From Iphinoe sp. HA4291-MV1 (GTDB taxonomy: Bacteria > Cyanobacteriota > Cyanobacteriia > Cyanobacteriales > Nostocaceae): DNA of 64,000 nucleotides. Both the position numbers and the translations under genes were made by a program. This document shows positions 2,552 to 54,037 of the stretch, piece by piece (positions within the stretch are counted from its first letter, which is position 1; each line of letters opens with the position of its first letter). The stretch is taken from contig JAHHHH010000004.1 of the NCBI GenBank assembly GCA_019359415.1, positions 1 to 64,000 on the forward strand, read 5' to 3'. The notes under the pieces are model-generated. The model had not been told where the DNA came from, searched no databases, and saw nothing but the letters and a program-made list of their open reading frames with translations.

Positions 2552-4022
2552 TTAAAACTCTGCTGCTTCTGCCAGAATCGGGTTTATATCAAACCAAGAA
2601 CCCTCGCGATCGCAATATTCATACACAAATCGACTGTGAACTAAACTGCGATAGTCTTCGTCTCCTCGCACCTGCTTATTTTTTTCCACCTGTCGCAGCA
2701 ATTCCCATTCATCTTTTGTAATTGCTAATTTCATTTGATTGCTACGTGCTTTGACCACACTTTCCAAAATGTTCTTTGAAAGAGGAAGCCGACGTTCTTT
2801 TTTAATCCAATCATAAAGCAACATGAGTAACTCGCGCACGTGACCACCACTAACATGACACAATCGCTCTAAAGTTTCTGGACTGTCAAAAACATCTTTA
2901 ATGAAATCGAAACGAAATTCTTCTGGTACAAGTGGAAAAGCTCTTGCTAGCACCATTTGTTTGAGCAGATATATTCCCTCGTGAGAAACACTACCGTCTC
3001 GTTGCAGCACAGGTACCATTGGCAGTACCTTGGGATTGACCATAAATCGCTGGCTTAATCTTTCTATATCATTTGAAAATCTCAACGATAAAGGCATAGT
3101 ATAAACAACATGGCATCTGAGTTGACGTAACTGTTCTCCCCGATCTACAAAGAGATATTCTGGTTGTGGTCTTCCCCAAGGCTTCTGAGAATTCTCCACA
3201 CGATCAAGATTATCGACAATCACCACCAGTCCCTTTTTACCCCGTTGCTTCAGTTTCTCAACAGCAGGTTGCAGAAGTTCCTCATTAATTGAGTCTAAAA
3301 TTCCTTTCGTTCGGGGACTGATATATTCTCTTAACTTATTGCGGAGTTCTGGGCTGCTTTTTGCTTTAGCTGTAATTTTGCCAATACCCAGCGGAATTGA
3401 TGCCTCAGCAGAAACTTCTAATTCTGCTTGGAAGAGTTTAGTGATACCCTGAAGTAAACTTTTCAACCCTTTAGGTTCACTGAGTTCCAGTTTTTCCAAA
3501 CTTTCAAGACTTTCACTGACTCGGCGGGCGATAGCTAGCATAATATCAGCAATATCCACATCACCCAATTCCAAATCTTGACTAGACTCAAAATAAACGA
3601 CAAAAAAGTCTTTTTCCTCTAATTCTGCTTTTAGCCGCAACAGTTCTGTAGACTTACCGCAGCCAATATGTCCTGTGAATAGTTCACAAGTCGGCTCATC
3701 AGGAGAAAAAAATGTAATATTTTCTTTTAATTCTTCAATTATCCTGCCACCCCGCACCGAGGCGAAATCAATATCAGTAGACCGAAAAGATTTCTAGAAG
3801 GCTTACCATTGGGGCATTCTGGCGGATTGTATACAATCCGCCAGAATGCCCGTATCATCTGCGTTTTGAGCAATAGGGTTGTAGATGAGTTCTCCTGCTA
3901 AGGTAAGCGATCGCTCGACCCTGTGCCCAAAACATCGCCCCAAACCCTCATTCTTGCGTTGACTGACAAAAGTTTTCGGTCTACTGAATATAATATTGCC
4001 TATCTAAGGGATTGCTCACCAC
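2552..4022 (-). pseudogene. P-loop ATPase (AAA/STAND type) split by a 212-bp MITE
   Basis: Cytoplasmic ATPase of unknown role. Walker A GHIGCGKST sits near the start of the downstream part, and a Walker B-like LVVIVDNLDRV follows about 150 residues later. The downstream part alone is open from 3757. Removing the MITE (3775-3986) and one copy of its 5-bp duplication joins codons for NPLDRQYY to IDFASVRGG in one frame and leads back to a GTG start at 4020-4022 (or 4017-4019). I therefore read the native gene as 2552-4022 with the insertion after about codon 12. Whether an internal start rescues expression is unknown; the downstream part still holds the whole ATPase domain. Confidence 0.75.
3775..3986 (-). 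mobile_element. 212-bp MITE, copy A
   Basis: Bounded by the 14-bp inverted repeat CAGTAGACCGAAAA and flanked by the 5-bp duplication AATAT (3770-3774 and 3987-3991). It contains a 38-bp perfect palindrome and a HIP1 site. It runs in the opposite orientation to copies B and D. It lies inside the ATPase gene, and there is no transposase inside. Confidence 0.9.
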
Positions 4023-9288: not shown

Positions 9289-11067
9289 ATGCTATTTAAG
9301 GTTTTTAAAAATCATAAATCCACTAAAATCTCATTCATCAAGACAGACCCAACCTGGTGCATAGCTTGGGGAGCGATTGATGCAAATTATGAAGGTATAG
9401 CTTGGCGAGACGAAAAAATTGCTGTGTTTCTACCGCATACAGCTTCTGGATTTTTGACAGAAAAACTAGCAATCAGTTCTGGAGAACAATTTGTTGTTGT
9501 TGGTGATGTGTGGTTAACTAACCAAGCACAGTTGCAGCAAAAATTGGGGATTGAACCCAATAGCCTTGCGCTAAGTCCTGTGCAACTAGTTGCTAATCTT
9601 TGGGAAAGATGGGGTTTTGAATGTCTTAACCAACTTGTGGGGATGTTTGCGTTTGTGGTTTGGGATAGGGAAAAACAGGTGTTGCGGTTGGTACGCGATC
9701 GCGTTGGTGCTCGTACTCTCTACTACACGACTACTGGTTCGGTTCGTTGGATTGCGCCCAAATTGAGAACTTTAGCACCCCATCATTCATCCGACTTGGA
9801 TTTAGTCGCTTTGCGCGATTATCTTTGTTGCGCCTTTGTTCCTGGAGAACGAACGCTTTGGCAACAGGTGCGCGAACTGCGTCCTGGAACTGTTTTACAA
9901 TTAAACGACCACAAAGTTCAAGCTTATTGGCAGCTACAAGAAAAGATTACAACAATAGATAAACCTTTAGCATGGCATAGCGATCGCCTGCGAGAACTGC
10001 TAGACCAAGTTGTTCAAGAATATTTACCACCGGAAAACGAACCCGTTGGAGTTTTTCTTTCTGGTGGTTTGGACTCCAGCAGCATCACCGCTTTAGCAGC
10101 AAAATTCCACAATTCCCCAGTCCATACCTTCTCCATTCATTTTGGACCCCTATGTCCCAATGAGTTAGAGTTTTCCAGTCTCGTTGCTTCTCATTGTCAG
10201 ACGCAACACCACATCCTAGAAATTACCTTTCGGGATATGTGGGAGTGTCTACCGGAAACAATGGCGTATTTAGATGACCCCATTGGCGATCCGCTGACTG
10301 TTCCCAACCTCTTGCTGGGACGACTGGCGCGAGAAAGTGTGCAGGTGGTGTTAAATGGCGAGGGTGGTGATCCCTGTTTTGGTGGTCCAAAGAATCAGCC
10401 AATGCTAATTAATAGTCTATATGGTTCCGTTAGCAATCAGGATTCATTGCAAGCTTATTTAATTTCTTTCCAAAAGTGTGCTGCTGACTTACCGCAACTT
10501 TTAAAACCAGAAGTTTGGACAGCAGTACAAACAACACCTTGGGTTTTTGAGGAGGATTTATATTCCCAAGCCAGCTATCTCAATCGTTTAATGGCAATGA
10601 ACATCAAATTTAAAGGTGCTGACCAAATTCTTACTAAAGTTAATAACTTAACTCAAGCTGCTCATATACACGGTCGTTCTCCTCTTTTTGACCAGCGAAT
10701 AGTAGACTTAAGCATGGAAATTCCTCCAAATTATAAGCTTTCTGGAGTTGAAGAAAAAGCGGTTCTTAAAGGAGCGATGCTCCAGCAGGGAGCCTTACCT
10801 AGCGCTATCGCAGATATTTTGCCAGACGCAATTATCAATCGTCCCAAAAGTGGAATGATGGTTCCCGTACAATTAGGATTTCGTAAATATTGGCAACAAA
10901 AAGCAAGAGATTTATTGCTAAGTCGCAATGCAGCGATCGCTCCTTATTTAAACCAGTCGCTAATACGCAATTGGCTAAATTATGAAGGAGATATTTGGAG
11001 TCGTTATGGCGTGAAGCTTTGGTTACTTGTTAGTTTAGAAATGTGGTTGCGAGTGCATCAAAAGTGA
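9289..11067 (+). CDS. Asparagine-synthetase-like amide ligase without glutaminase cysteine
   Basis: Belongs to the asparagine synthase fold. The C-terminal synthetase half has the pyrophosphate loop VFLSGGLDSSS (residues 255-265) and NGEGGDP, which activate a carboxylate with ATP. The N-terminal half keeps the shape of the glutaminase domain (GDVWLTNQAQL, DRVGARTLYY) but has no Cys after Met1; the protein starts MLFKVFKNH. It therefore should not hydrolyse glutamine and may use free ammonia or another amine, as in beta-lactam synthetases or lasso-peptide cyclases. The ATG at 9289 has GGTGAG eight nt upstream and sits 25 nt after the ABC ATPase, so it is probably co-transcribed. Its convergent neighbours include a paralogue (14391-16232). 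The substrate is unknown. Confidence 0.8.
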   Translation: MLFKVFKNHKSTKISFIKTDPTWCIAWGAIDANYEGIAWRDEKIAVFLPHTASGFLTEKLAISSGEQFVVVGDVWLTNQAQLQQKLGIEPNSLALSPVQLVANLWERWGFECLNQLVGMFAFVVWDREKQVLRLVRDRVGARTLYYTTTGSVRWIAPKLRTLAPHHSSDLDLVALRDYLCCAFVPGERTLWQQVRELRPGTVLQLNDHKVQAYWQLQEKITTIDKPLAWHSDRLRELLDQVVQEYLPPENEPVGVFLSGGLDSSSITALAAKFHNSPVHTFSIHFGPLCPNELEFSSLVASHCQTQHHILEITFRDMWECLPETMAYLDDPIGDPLTVPNLLLGRLARESVQVVLNGEGGDPCFGGPKNQPMLINSLYGSVSNQDSLQAYLISFQKCAADLPQLLKPEVWTAVQTTPWVFEEDLYSQASYLNRLMAMNIKFKGADQILTKVNNLTQAAHIHGRSPLFDQRIVDLSMEIPPNYKLSGVEEKAVLKGAMLQQGALPSAIADILPDAIINRPKSGMMVPVQLGFRKYWQQKARDLLLSRNAAIAPYLNQSLIRNWLNYEGDIWSRYGVKLWLLVSLEMWLRVHQK

Positions 11068-18989: not shown

Positions 18990-19529
18990 CTCTCATTGAT
19001 AGACTTCAGGATTGACACAATTAGGCAATCGCTCCCCCTTCAACCCAGCAATCAGATTAGCGATCGCCATGTTTGCCATTTTTTCTCGTGTTTGACGGCT
19101 GGCACTGCCAATATGAGGTGTAATAATCAGGTTATCTAAAGTCAGTAAGGGGCTATCGGTTGGTATCGGTTCTGGATCGGTGACATCTATGGCAGCACCT
19201 GCAATTTGACCATTCGCAAGCGCTCGGTATAATGCTTCTGGATCTACAACTGCTCCCCGCGCCGTGTTAATGAGAATGGCAGACTGCTTCATCAGTTCAA
19301 ACTGGCGATCGCTAAAAAGATGATATGTATCATCCGATAATGGTGTATGAATTGTCACGAAATCTGCTTCTGGCAGCAGACGTTCAAACGTAGTAAACTC
19401 CACATCTAAAAGTTTTTCTAAATCCTGGTCACACCTGTGTTTGCTAGTATAAAAAATTTTCATATCAAACCCTTTGGCACGACGAGCGATCGCTTGACCA
19501 ATGCGCCCAAAACCAACAATCCCTAAAGT

Positions 19530-19741
19530 CAGTAGACCGAAAACTTTTGTCAGTCAACGCAAGAATGAGGGTTTGGGGCGATGTTTTGGGCACAGGGTCG
19601 AGCGATCGCTTACCTTAGCAGGAGAACTCATCTACAACCCTATTGCTCAAAACGCAGATGATACGGGCATTCTGGCGGATTGTATACAATCCGCCAGAAT
19701 GCCCCAATGGTAAGCCTTCTAGAAATCTTTTCGGTCTACTG
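19530..19741 (+). mobile_element. 212-bp MITE, copy B
   Basis: Same ends (CAGTAGACCGAAAA), length and internal palindrome as copy A, in the opposite orientation. The 5-bp duplication is AAAGT at 19525-19529 and 19742-19746. It interrupts the 2-hydroxyacid dehydrogenase gene in its nucleotide-binding region. Confidence 0.92.
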
Positions 19742-19989
19742 AAAGTCGCACCTGTGATATTCGGTCCTAGGAACAAATTTGGTTCCCATGTCCGCCACTG
19801 ACCCCCACGAGCAAATCGGTCTGCTTCTACCACTCGTCGCACAGCAGCCATGAGTAACGCCCAAGTCAAGTCAGCAGTCGCATCTGTTAATATACCAGGA
19901 GTATGACCAACTGGTATCTTCCGTGCAGTAGCGGCAGGAATGTCAATATTGTCGTATCCAACTGCCATTTGGCTAATAACTTTAACTGA

Positions 19990-20312
19990 TGGGGAGTTTG
20001 AGGGGCTATAAGTCCCCCGCCATAACGGTACTCCGTTTGGCGGTGGGATACATGGACCCCTCATGGAAAAAGACAGCATTCGATGTGCTGCCATGAGTGT
20101 GGATACACAACAGACCGCGATGTTGCTGCTGCGATGGTAGTAGAGCAAAGAGGTCTTGCAGCTGCGGGACTCGCAGTCAAGCTGCCTGTGGAGGTATCGT
20201 TGTCCGGGGACGCAAGTCTAGGCACGACCCGTGAAACAGGAAAACCCAGGAAGTGATTCTTGGAAGCCCCCGCTGTACTCGGTACTCCGAGTCAGTGGCG
20301 GGAGGATGTCAC
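19990..20312 (+). mobile_element. Internally deleted IS200/IS605-type element (TnpB relic)
   Basis: The left part holds the hairpin CCCCCGCCA...TGGCGGTGGG, then a TnpB C-terminal fragment and a right-end hairpin (CCCCCGCT...AGTGGCGGGAGG) ending in GATGTCA, all features of IS605-family ends. It lies in the dehydrogenase gene between codons for IQTAG and VISQMAV. Exact boundaries are uncertain by several bases because this family makes no target duplication. Confidence 0.65.
20062..20256 (+). pseudogene. TnpB C-terminal fragment
   Basis: Reads CCHECGYTTDRDVAAA, the second half of the TnpB zinc ribbon with the RuvC-type D (DRD), followed by MVVEQRGLAAAGLAVKLPVE and a stop at 20254-20256. The rest of the nuclease is missing, so it is inactive. 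Confidence 0.65.
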
Positions 20313-20607
20313 GAGAGGTTCCGGCTGTTTGTATCAGTTGCTGATCAATTTGGTCTGTCAGCAAGCACAGCAAACCATCAATTGTTTTGACCTTTTTTAG
20401 TAAAACTTTATAGGGAGGCGGTTGGCGTTCTTCCCAGACTTCAATAGTAGCAATCTTTTGCAGTTGCTCTAATTTGGTGAGGAGACGGCGAGTGATGAAG
20501 ACTTTGGGTTGAGACATGGTTGAGGGTTTGTTGGGTTTCGCTTACGCTCAACTTAAGCTACTAGCTGCGACAAATGATGTCAACTTAAACCTAAAGGCAA
20601 GAATGAT

Positions 20608-27635: not shown

Positions 27636-27929
27636 ACCAGTCCACAAATAAGACAATCCCAATAAGCGTTTTCCCGTGTGAAAAGCGTCTTCAATCCGCC
27701 AACGCCGACGATATAAATCAGGCGCAAACTTAATACTATCTGGTAAAGGACGCCTGAGTCGTTGTTGCCAATTCTGTTGTAACTGAGGTAGTAAGTCTTT
27801 AAAGGCGTTCTCAAATAATTCAGCAGGAAAAACTAAAAATCTTTGTGCTAGAGACTGTTGAGCAATTTTAGTAGCACGACACCATAACAAATCTTCTCTT
27901 GCTAACAAGCGAGTTAATTCTTGTACACT

Positions 27930-28141
27930 CAGTAGACCGAAAAGATTTCTAGAAGGCTTACCATTGGGGCATTCTGGCGGATTGTATACAATCCGCCAGA
28001 ATGCCCGTATCATCTGCGTTTTGAGCAATAGGGTTGTAGATGAGTTCTCCTGCTAAGGTAAGCGATCGCTCGACCCTGTGCCCAAAACATCGCCCCAAAC
28101 CCTCATTCTTGCGTTGACTGACAAAAGTTTTCGGTCTACTG
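27930..28141 (-). mobile_element. 212-bp MITE, copy C
   Basis: Same orientation as copy A, flanked by ACACT at 27925-27929 and 28142-28146. It is nested inside the IS4-like transposase gene, and so arrived after that IS. Removing it and one ACACT joins QVPSV to QELTRLL in frame. Confidence 0.92.
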
Positions 28142-28591
28142 ACACTTGGAACCTGTCTCCATAGTAGTGTTAACACCGCTGCCACCATCAAGGATAAATT
28201 AATTATACGGTCTCGTAATCCTAATTGCTTATAATATTTTTGTTGGGCAGAAATAGCAGGAGTTAATAAGGCTTGTAAATGTTCAGTAATTACTTCGTTA
28301 TTGATGGTAGGAGTATTGTGTCGCTTGACATGGTCGGGATTACGCTTTGTTTTTTTAGACATCGTGGTGAGCCAAAAAAGTCATCACTTAGTTTGACATC
28401 TTTGTGCGACCTAACAATAACCTATTTATCCTGAAATCGTTCTATTCAAGATTAACGATCGCCTCCACCAAATTAGATTTGATAATGATAATCCAAATAA
28501 GCGGAGGAGAGCCGAGCATTGCTCAAAGCGATTATCATTATCAAAACCTTATTTCTCATTCTTTAGAGGTATTGACAAAATGTAGATAACC

Positions 28592-53570: not shown

Positions 53571-54037
53571 AGAAGCTAATCCCAGAGAATACCACCCAAC
53601 ATATCCCAGGTTTTCGGACCTACGATACCATCCACAACCAAGTTGTATTCTTGCTGGAAGTTTCTCACAGCTTGCTCTGTTTGCTCTAGAAAGTTTCCAG
53701 TCCGTGAATCACTCTTAAGGTAATCTAGAGCAATTAAGATATTCTGCAACAATTTCAGTAGACCGAAAACTTTTGTCAGTCAACGCAAGAATGAGGGTTT
53801 GGGGCGATGTTTTGGGCACAGGGTCGAGCGATCGCTTACCTTAGCAGGAGAACTCATCTACAACCCTATTGCTCAAAACGCAGATGATACGGGCATTCTG
53901 GCGGATTGTATACAATCCGCCAGAATGCCCCAATGGTAAGCCTTCTAGAAATCTTTTCGGTCTACTGAATTTCACAGCGCCACCAGTATCGCCCTTTCGT
54001 AGAACTGGTAATTCCTTACTAGCTGTTGCTTGCATGA
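53571..54037 (-). pseudogene. Peptidoglycan-binding domain protein split by MITE copy D
   Basis: The N-terminal part reads MQATASKELPVLRKGDTGGAVK, the start of a PG_binding_1 repeat. After the MITE the frame continues LLQNILIALDYLKSDSRTG, then QTEQAVRNFQQEYNLVVDGIVG and ends WDMLGGILWD. Removing 53756-53967 and one AATTT restores GAVKLLQN and a complete small wall-binding protein of about 83 residues. The ATG at 54035-54037 is the likely start. Confidence 0.85.
53756..53967 (+). mobile_element. 212-bp MITE, copy D
   Basis: Same orientation and by-eye identity as copy B, flanked by AATTT at 53751-53755 and 53968-53972. It lies in the peptidoglycan-binding gene. Confidence 0.92.

Follow-up and report, generated by a model that had tools for sequence, protein, structure and literature searches.

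A MITE with ISH3-type ends and a recent burst of copies in the cyanobacterium Iphinoe sp. HA4291-MV1

In a 64-kb stretch of the Iphinoe sp. HA4291-MV1 genome, hereafter the window, the same 212-bp segment is found four times, which raises the question of what this segment is, which enzyme moved it and how recently. The initial annotation had reported four copies of 212 bp, with 5-bp duplications that begin with A and end with T and an inner palindrome of 38 bp. The coordinates given for the copies proved exact, the four sequences are 100% identical after orienting, and the duplications AATAT, AAAGT, ACACT and AATTT are all perfect over 5 bp and all of the A...T type; the palindrome, however, is of 40 bp (self-match 38-77 of the element). 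The copies lie two per strand. The 14-bp terminal repeat CAGTAGACCGAAAA has 8 exact occurrences in the window, and a scan that allowed up to two mismatches returned 9 matches, compared with 0.47 in shuffles. The size of 212 bp, the lack of a transposase gene, the perfect 14-bp terminal inverted repeats, the target duplications and the many copies are those of a MITE. The features of the window copies are as follows.

3775..3986, + strand: MITE copy 1, 212 bp, close to the 5′ end of a P-loop NTPase ORF or immediately before it
3770..3774 (left) and 3987-3991 (right): target duplication AATAT of copy 1
3775..3788, + strand: left terminal inverted repeat of copy 1, CAGTAGACCGAAAA
3973..3986, - strand: right terminal inverted repeat of copy 1
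3812..3851: perfect 40-bp palindrome of copy 1, absent from the other 27 aligned family members
19530..19741, - strand: MITE copy 2, in a D-2-hydroxyacid dehydrogenase gene; duplication AAAGT at 19525-19529 and 19742-19746, palindrome at 19665-19704
27930..28141, + strand: MITE copy 3, within what is probably the transposase gene of a different IS; duplication ACACT at 27925-27929 and 28142-28146, palindrome at 27967-28006
53756..53967, - strand: MITE copy 4, in a short PG_binding_1 ORF; duplication AATTT at 53751-53755 and 53968-53972, palindrome at 53891-53930

A search of the genome for the element ends, with a count of the copies, had been called for by the initial annotation, and the host's own assembly (7.36 Mb, 140 contigs, 95% complete) was scanned. 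It holds 129 exact terminal repeats, together with 55 subterminal sequences of the first type and 58 exact ones of the second type, plus one with two mismatches. The catalogue compiled from it contains 52 complete copies and 9 copies cut by contig ends (3 first-type and 6 second-type ends), and it explains both subterminal counts, since 52 + 6 = 58 and 52 + 3 = 55. The element thus occupies more than 50 sites, with at least six further copies interrupted by contig ends. Of the 52 complete copies, 43 match the window copy exactly and 9 differ from it by one common substitution, C154A; no private changes were found among the 52. The copies are oriented 27 one way and 25 the other way. A perfect 5-bp duplication flanks 48 of the 52, and ANNNT is present on both sides of all 52, including the four with unmatched duplications, and likewise at the 9 cut ends. 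These four may derive from recombination between copies or from mis-assembly, and the identity of the copies may be overstated, since short-read assembly can merge the rare variants of a repeat.

Several contigs of this genome are described here in their own right. The first 12,943 bp of contig C115 (L074) are rich in insertions, with five MITE copies inside 9.5 kb and, beyond them, ISH3-type ends at 10805 and 12917. The two ends of contig C91 (38,377 bp; L064, L065 and L077) are the halves of one MITE copy with the same duplication, ATTGT; this contig encodes Mob_Pre and DnaB and probably represents a circular ~38-kb plasmid. Contig C79 (L330-L332), which is listed as viral in IMG/VR, encodes a terminase and a DNA methylase close to one of its ends, and several of its ten searched proteins are nonribosomal-peptide-synthetase-like or host-like.

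We then compared the insertion sites with those of the nearest relatives, judging the window copies only, at copies 1 and 2. Copies 3 and 4 were uninformative, the first because the gene that holds it is repeated, the second because its near flanks have no alignment in the congeners. At the site of copy 1 the flanks adjoin with one 5-bp overlap in four of seven congeners (G001, G002, G004 and G006); for the remaining three, no such alignment across the site was obtained. At the site of copy 2 the flanks adjoin with the duplication present once in six of the seven, and the seventh (G003) aligns in part. Hence, both testable window sites are empty in relatives. The recent burst that had been proposed from the window alone is borne out by these empty sites, by the 52 complete copies with at most one common substitution and by the proportion of duplications that are still perfect.

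The initial annotation had also placed each copy in a gene and had considered four insertions out of four in coding DNA unusual for a MITE. The first statement stands in part: three of the copies are in ORFs of 299-435 aa, but copy 1 lies within the first 7% of its ORF, or just upstream of it given a later start codon, and the ORF of copy 4 is just 80 aa long, with a PG_binding_1 (peptidoglycan-binding) domain. The ORF of copy 1 scores 22.1 bits with KAP_NTPase (cut-off 20), and the gene that holds copy 3 scores 19.9 bits with DDE_Tnp_1, below the 23-bit cut-off. The second statement was not upheld: four of four in coding DNA is expected by chance about one time in five, and with a threshold of 100 aa the count in the window is three of four. 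Genome-wide, 25 of the 52 insertions are in ORFs of at least 100 aa, compared with 69.0% of 1040 random points (two-sided binomial p = 0.002) and 67.3% of 1040 ANNNT points (p = 0.005); the control points were drawn from the same flanks as the copies, and these flanks are short at a few contig ends. An insertion preference for genes is thereby ruled out, and long ORFs are hit less often than chance, either through selection or through the choice of targets. In addition, the dehydrogenase gene of copy 2 carries a second insertion of about 328 bp (window 19986-20313), which is missing at that site in the congeners and has partial relatives in G007 (98%) and G005 (91%); its end may resemble that of a small IS200/IS605-type element.

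Which transposase could have moved the element was approached through its ends. In the available text of De Palmenaer et al. 2008 (PMC2266710), ISH3 elements are described with CRGT ends, with duplications that usually span five bases and are bounded by A and T, and with a Y-(2)-R-(3)-E-(3)-R transposase motif, in a family so far limited to archaea. The MITE begins with CAGT at both ends and its duplications, given above, fit this description. Full elements with near-identical ends of about 20 bp and 5-bp duplications are present in a congener and in other Nostocales, as listed below together with related elements.

L110:1761-3609, congener G005: 1849 bp, duplication ACCGT, 378-aa DDE protein
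L238, Spirirestis: exact duplication AATTT
L117, G013: exact duplication AAAGT; gene broken by frameshifts, in three frames
L326, Tolypothrix PCC 7601 plasmid: exact duplication AAATT; ends with one mismatch
L131: exact duplication ATATT; ends more divergent
L130: exact duplication CTGAG; ends more divergent
L328, named plasmid: exact duplication AGAAA; ends more divergent
L177: duplications that differ by one mismatch; gene broken
L204: open frame of 385 codons; duplications do not match
L327, Trichormus plasmid: record begins inside the element, one end seen

The transposase of L110, the sole protein scored, reached 233.9 bits on the NCBIfam profile NF033541 for ISH3 (cut-off 225) and 28.5 bits on Pfam DDE_Tnp_1 (cut-off 23). 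It carries YRLRFGIESSYR, which corresponds to the published motif, and the motif was found in five of six proteins tried (L110, L130, L131, L204 and L238), the sixth, from L201, being the product of a different gene. The elements measure 1448-1534 bp in L117, L130, L131, L177, L238, L326 and L328 and 1849 bp in L110, compared with a published ISH3 range of 1225-1500 bp, which some of the first seven exceed slightly. Judged from these sequences, ISH3 is most likely the parent family of the MITE. An exact extended end is present in 13 of 60 relatives (own genome counted), with 0-6 per genome in 59 relatives compared with 70 in the own genome. The duplication CTGAG of L130 and AGAAA of L328 lack the A...T pattern, which suggests that the duplication is of 5 bp in length and that A and T represent a target preference, outside the element.

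The terminal repeat of the MITE is perfect over 14 bp, and over 19-20 bp it has at most one mismatch to the ends of the closest full elements. The window element differs from these in its 212 bp and in its lack of a transposase, with only the terminal ~20 bp in common, and a plain deletion derivative of any full IS found was rejected on this ground. A search for elements of 400-4000 bp between MITE-type ends found none in the loci retrieved from other genomes (most own-genome loci excluded). Two structures of other kinds were observed among the loci with ISH3-type ends. In Kamptonema sp. UHCC 0994 (L201:5388-6235) such ends and the duplication AATGT enclose 848 bp in which a DUF6985 gene replaces the transposase, a possible mobile insertion cassette. 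In L110, a 13-bp inverted repeat around about 134 bp (element positions 145-278) lies between the left end and the transposase gene; it is perhaps a nested small element, and explains just part of the extra length.

No parent transposase had been seen in the window, and this holds for the whole assembly, in which no intact ISH3 gene was found and the NF033541 profile gave no match at E <= 10. One decayed remnant of 43 aa with two stops is present on contig C60, and its neighbourhood best matches the more divergent L130/L131-type elements; six ISH3-type ends are left in the genome. One of them is at the start of contig C63, which begins 124 bp inside an ISH3-type right end that is 83% identical to L204 and shows this IS end only, without transposase. 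Where a contig end cuts a MITE copy, the break lies 120-124 bp into the element, and the sum of this inside length and the flank common with another copy is 125-127 in eight of nine cut copies and 131 in one, so that in eight of nine cases the breaks fit a k=127 assembly at a repeat. Since C63 breaks 124 bp inside an ISH3-type end, as the contigs do at MITE copies, a multicopy ISH3 parent may well have been lost from the assembly, and an assembly gap may explain why no parent transposase is seen.

The MITE belongs to a wider family, with a match in 67 of 218 genomes of the host's family (own counted) in a survey that scored three candidates per genome and gives presence rather than copy numbers. 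The five best places in three other genomes are 79-85% identical to the MITE; the nearest match, at 85%, is in G120, where the element has exactly the sequence of the one in Tolypothrix campylonemoides L208. The ~210-bp MITEs of other Nostocales (T. campylonemoides L208, and L223) resemble the window element in ends, length and interior blocks, and have perfect A...T duplications as well. We aligned 28 members: 26 chosen by hand among 45 candidate stretches, together with the window copy and an older own-genome copy (L070); from the 30 listed, L096 (a near duplicate of L080) and L231 (apparently mis-oriented) were left out. The interior blocks are common to all 28 and absent from the closest full ISs. 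In contrast to the other 27, only the window lineage has the perfect 40-bp palindrome. In G024 (L283, outside the alignment) the inner 18 bp are palindromic and the outer part is not, which suggests that the perfect palindrome arose by correction of an imperfect one. RNAalifold on the 28 members found only the terminal repeats and no conserved inner hairpin. For nine inner pairs, 71.3% of the cells were paired compared with 68.4% in shuffles, a level that 18 of 500 shuffles reached and that speaks weakly in favour of pairing, and slid partners gave 27-49%; no excess of changes on both sides was seen at these pairs, and a stem at shuffle p <= 0.02 was obtained in only 2 of the other 27 members. 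These results do not establish a conserved hairpin, and a relict quasi-palindrome is possible. A regulatory role was discarded, given that an Rfam search of the window had no match at the gathering threshold and that around copy 1 there was no terminator-like site and one promoter-like match, near the 0.7 expected.

We propose, with a probability of roughly 0.85, that the element is a non-autonomous MITE with ISH3-family ends, moved by an ISH3-family transposase into ANNNT targets that are duplicated. In this model the transposase, a DDE enzyme with a 5-bp staggered cut, would recognise the terminal repeat and, acting in trans, would move the 212-bp element into ANNNT sites, which would become duplicated. 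One or two master copies would have been the source, amplified very recently, and the transposase gene would reside on a multicopy element dropped by the short-read assembly. Counting against this explanation are the lack of an intact ISH3 gene in the assembly, the L130/L131-type affinity of the C60 remnant, the one cut copy with a sum of 131 and the L130 and L328 duplications without A...T. The same lack of a gene would be expected if the transposase had arrived briefly from outside, for example on a plasmid, and had then been lost, leaving the MITE stranded. This course of events is less likely than the one proposed: plasmids of Tolypothrix and Trichormus that are classed as conjugative carry ISH3 transposases 80-84% identical, and one MITE copy lies on the contig that encodes Mob_Pre and DnaB, but C63 ends inside an ISH3-type end like a collapsed multicopy repeat, and the smallest of the 48 of 140 contigs covered measures 10,371 bp, so that a short IS contig may have been left out.

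It is rather doubtful that the near-identity is partly a product of assembly, with rare private variants collapsed and a burst older than it appears. The k=127 breaks of eight of nine cut copies would fit such a collapse, as would the four unmatched duplications, which look as if they came from recombination or mis-joining, and contig C79 is identical to the metagenome-derived IMGVR_UViG_3300036393_000020 over 3,113 bases compared; however, the variant carried by 9 of 52 copies was retained in the assembly, and 48 of the 52 duplications are still perfect. The palindrome offers another reading, in which template switching perfected the 40-bp stretch, and the hairpin or cruciform so formed rendered the MITE hyperactive and set off the burst, for instance by bringing the ends together or by exposing single strands at replication; we regard this as unlikely. 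A conserved repeat kept for a regulatory or structural host function, with no recent parasite expansion, is very improbable. The interior blocks are conserved across genera in the 28 aligned members, and the strand is much more strongly folded than its shuffles (z = -7.8), mainly owing to the palindrome, but this reading is largely refuted by the sites that are empty in congeners, several copies interrupt ORFs, Rfam gave no match at the gathering threshold, and covariation lends no support to the inner hairpin.

The preferred reading, a MITE mobilized by an ISH3-family transposase, was then set against what has been published. The cyanobacterial MITE Nezha is reportedly about 134 bp long with an 8-bp duplication, and would in this differ from the window MITE. 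Both are short non-autonomous elements in a cyanobacterium, Nezha (Zhou et al. 2008) being cited in the MITE review PMC10969869, and the term ISH3 was not found in the available part of that review. ISH3 is placed mainly in archaea in the available text of PMC9208149, and the accessible part of PMC5853447 has one ISH3 in a Nodularia strain. ISH3 genes are today annotated in cyanobacteria, in contrast to the family as described from archaea only in the 2008 text at hand (PMC2266710); RefSeq annotates ISH3 transposases on Nostocales plasmids, with haloarchaeal relatives 31-35% identical among the matches listed. In the open PubMed Central literature, which excludes most subscription work such as the Anabaena PCC 7120 insertion-sequence survey, we found no name for this Nostocales MITE family, no link between the ISH3 family, cyanobacteria and a MITE, and nothing on a Brasilonema genome together with a transposase; a search there for the letters CAGTAGACC gave, among the matches listed, other subjects by title.

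These results indicated that a MITE with ISH3-type ends and a recent burst is well supported. A widespread Nostocales MITE family is thereby linked to ISH3, whose first description covered archaea only. Furthermore, the host offers a natural experiment, that of one lineage in which 52 complete copies are near-identical and congeners that have 0-6 exact extended ends each, the difference lying at a newly formed palindrome.
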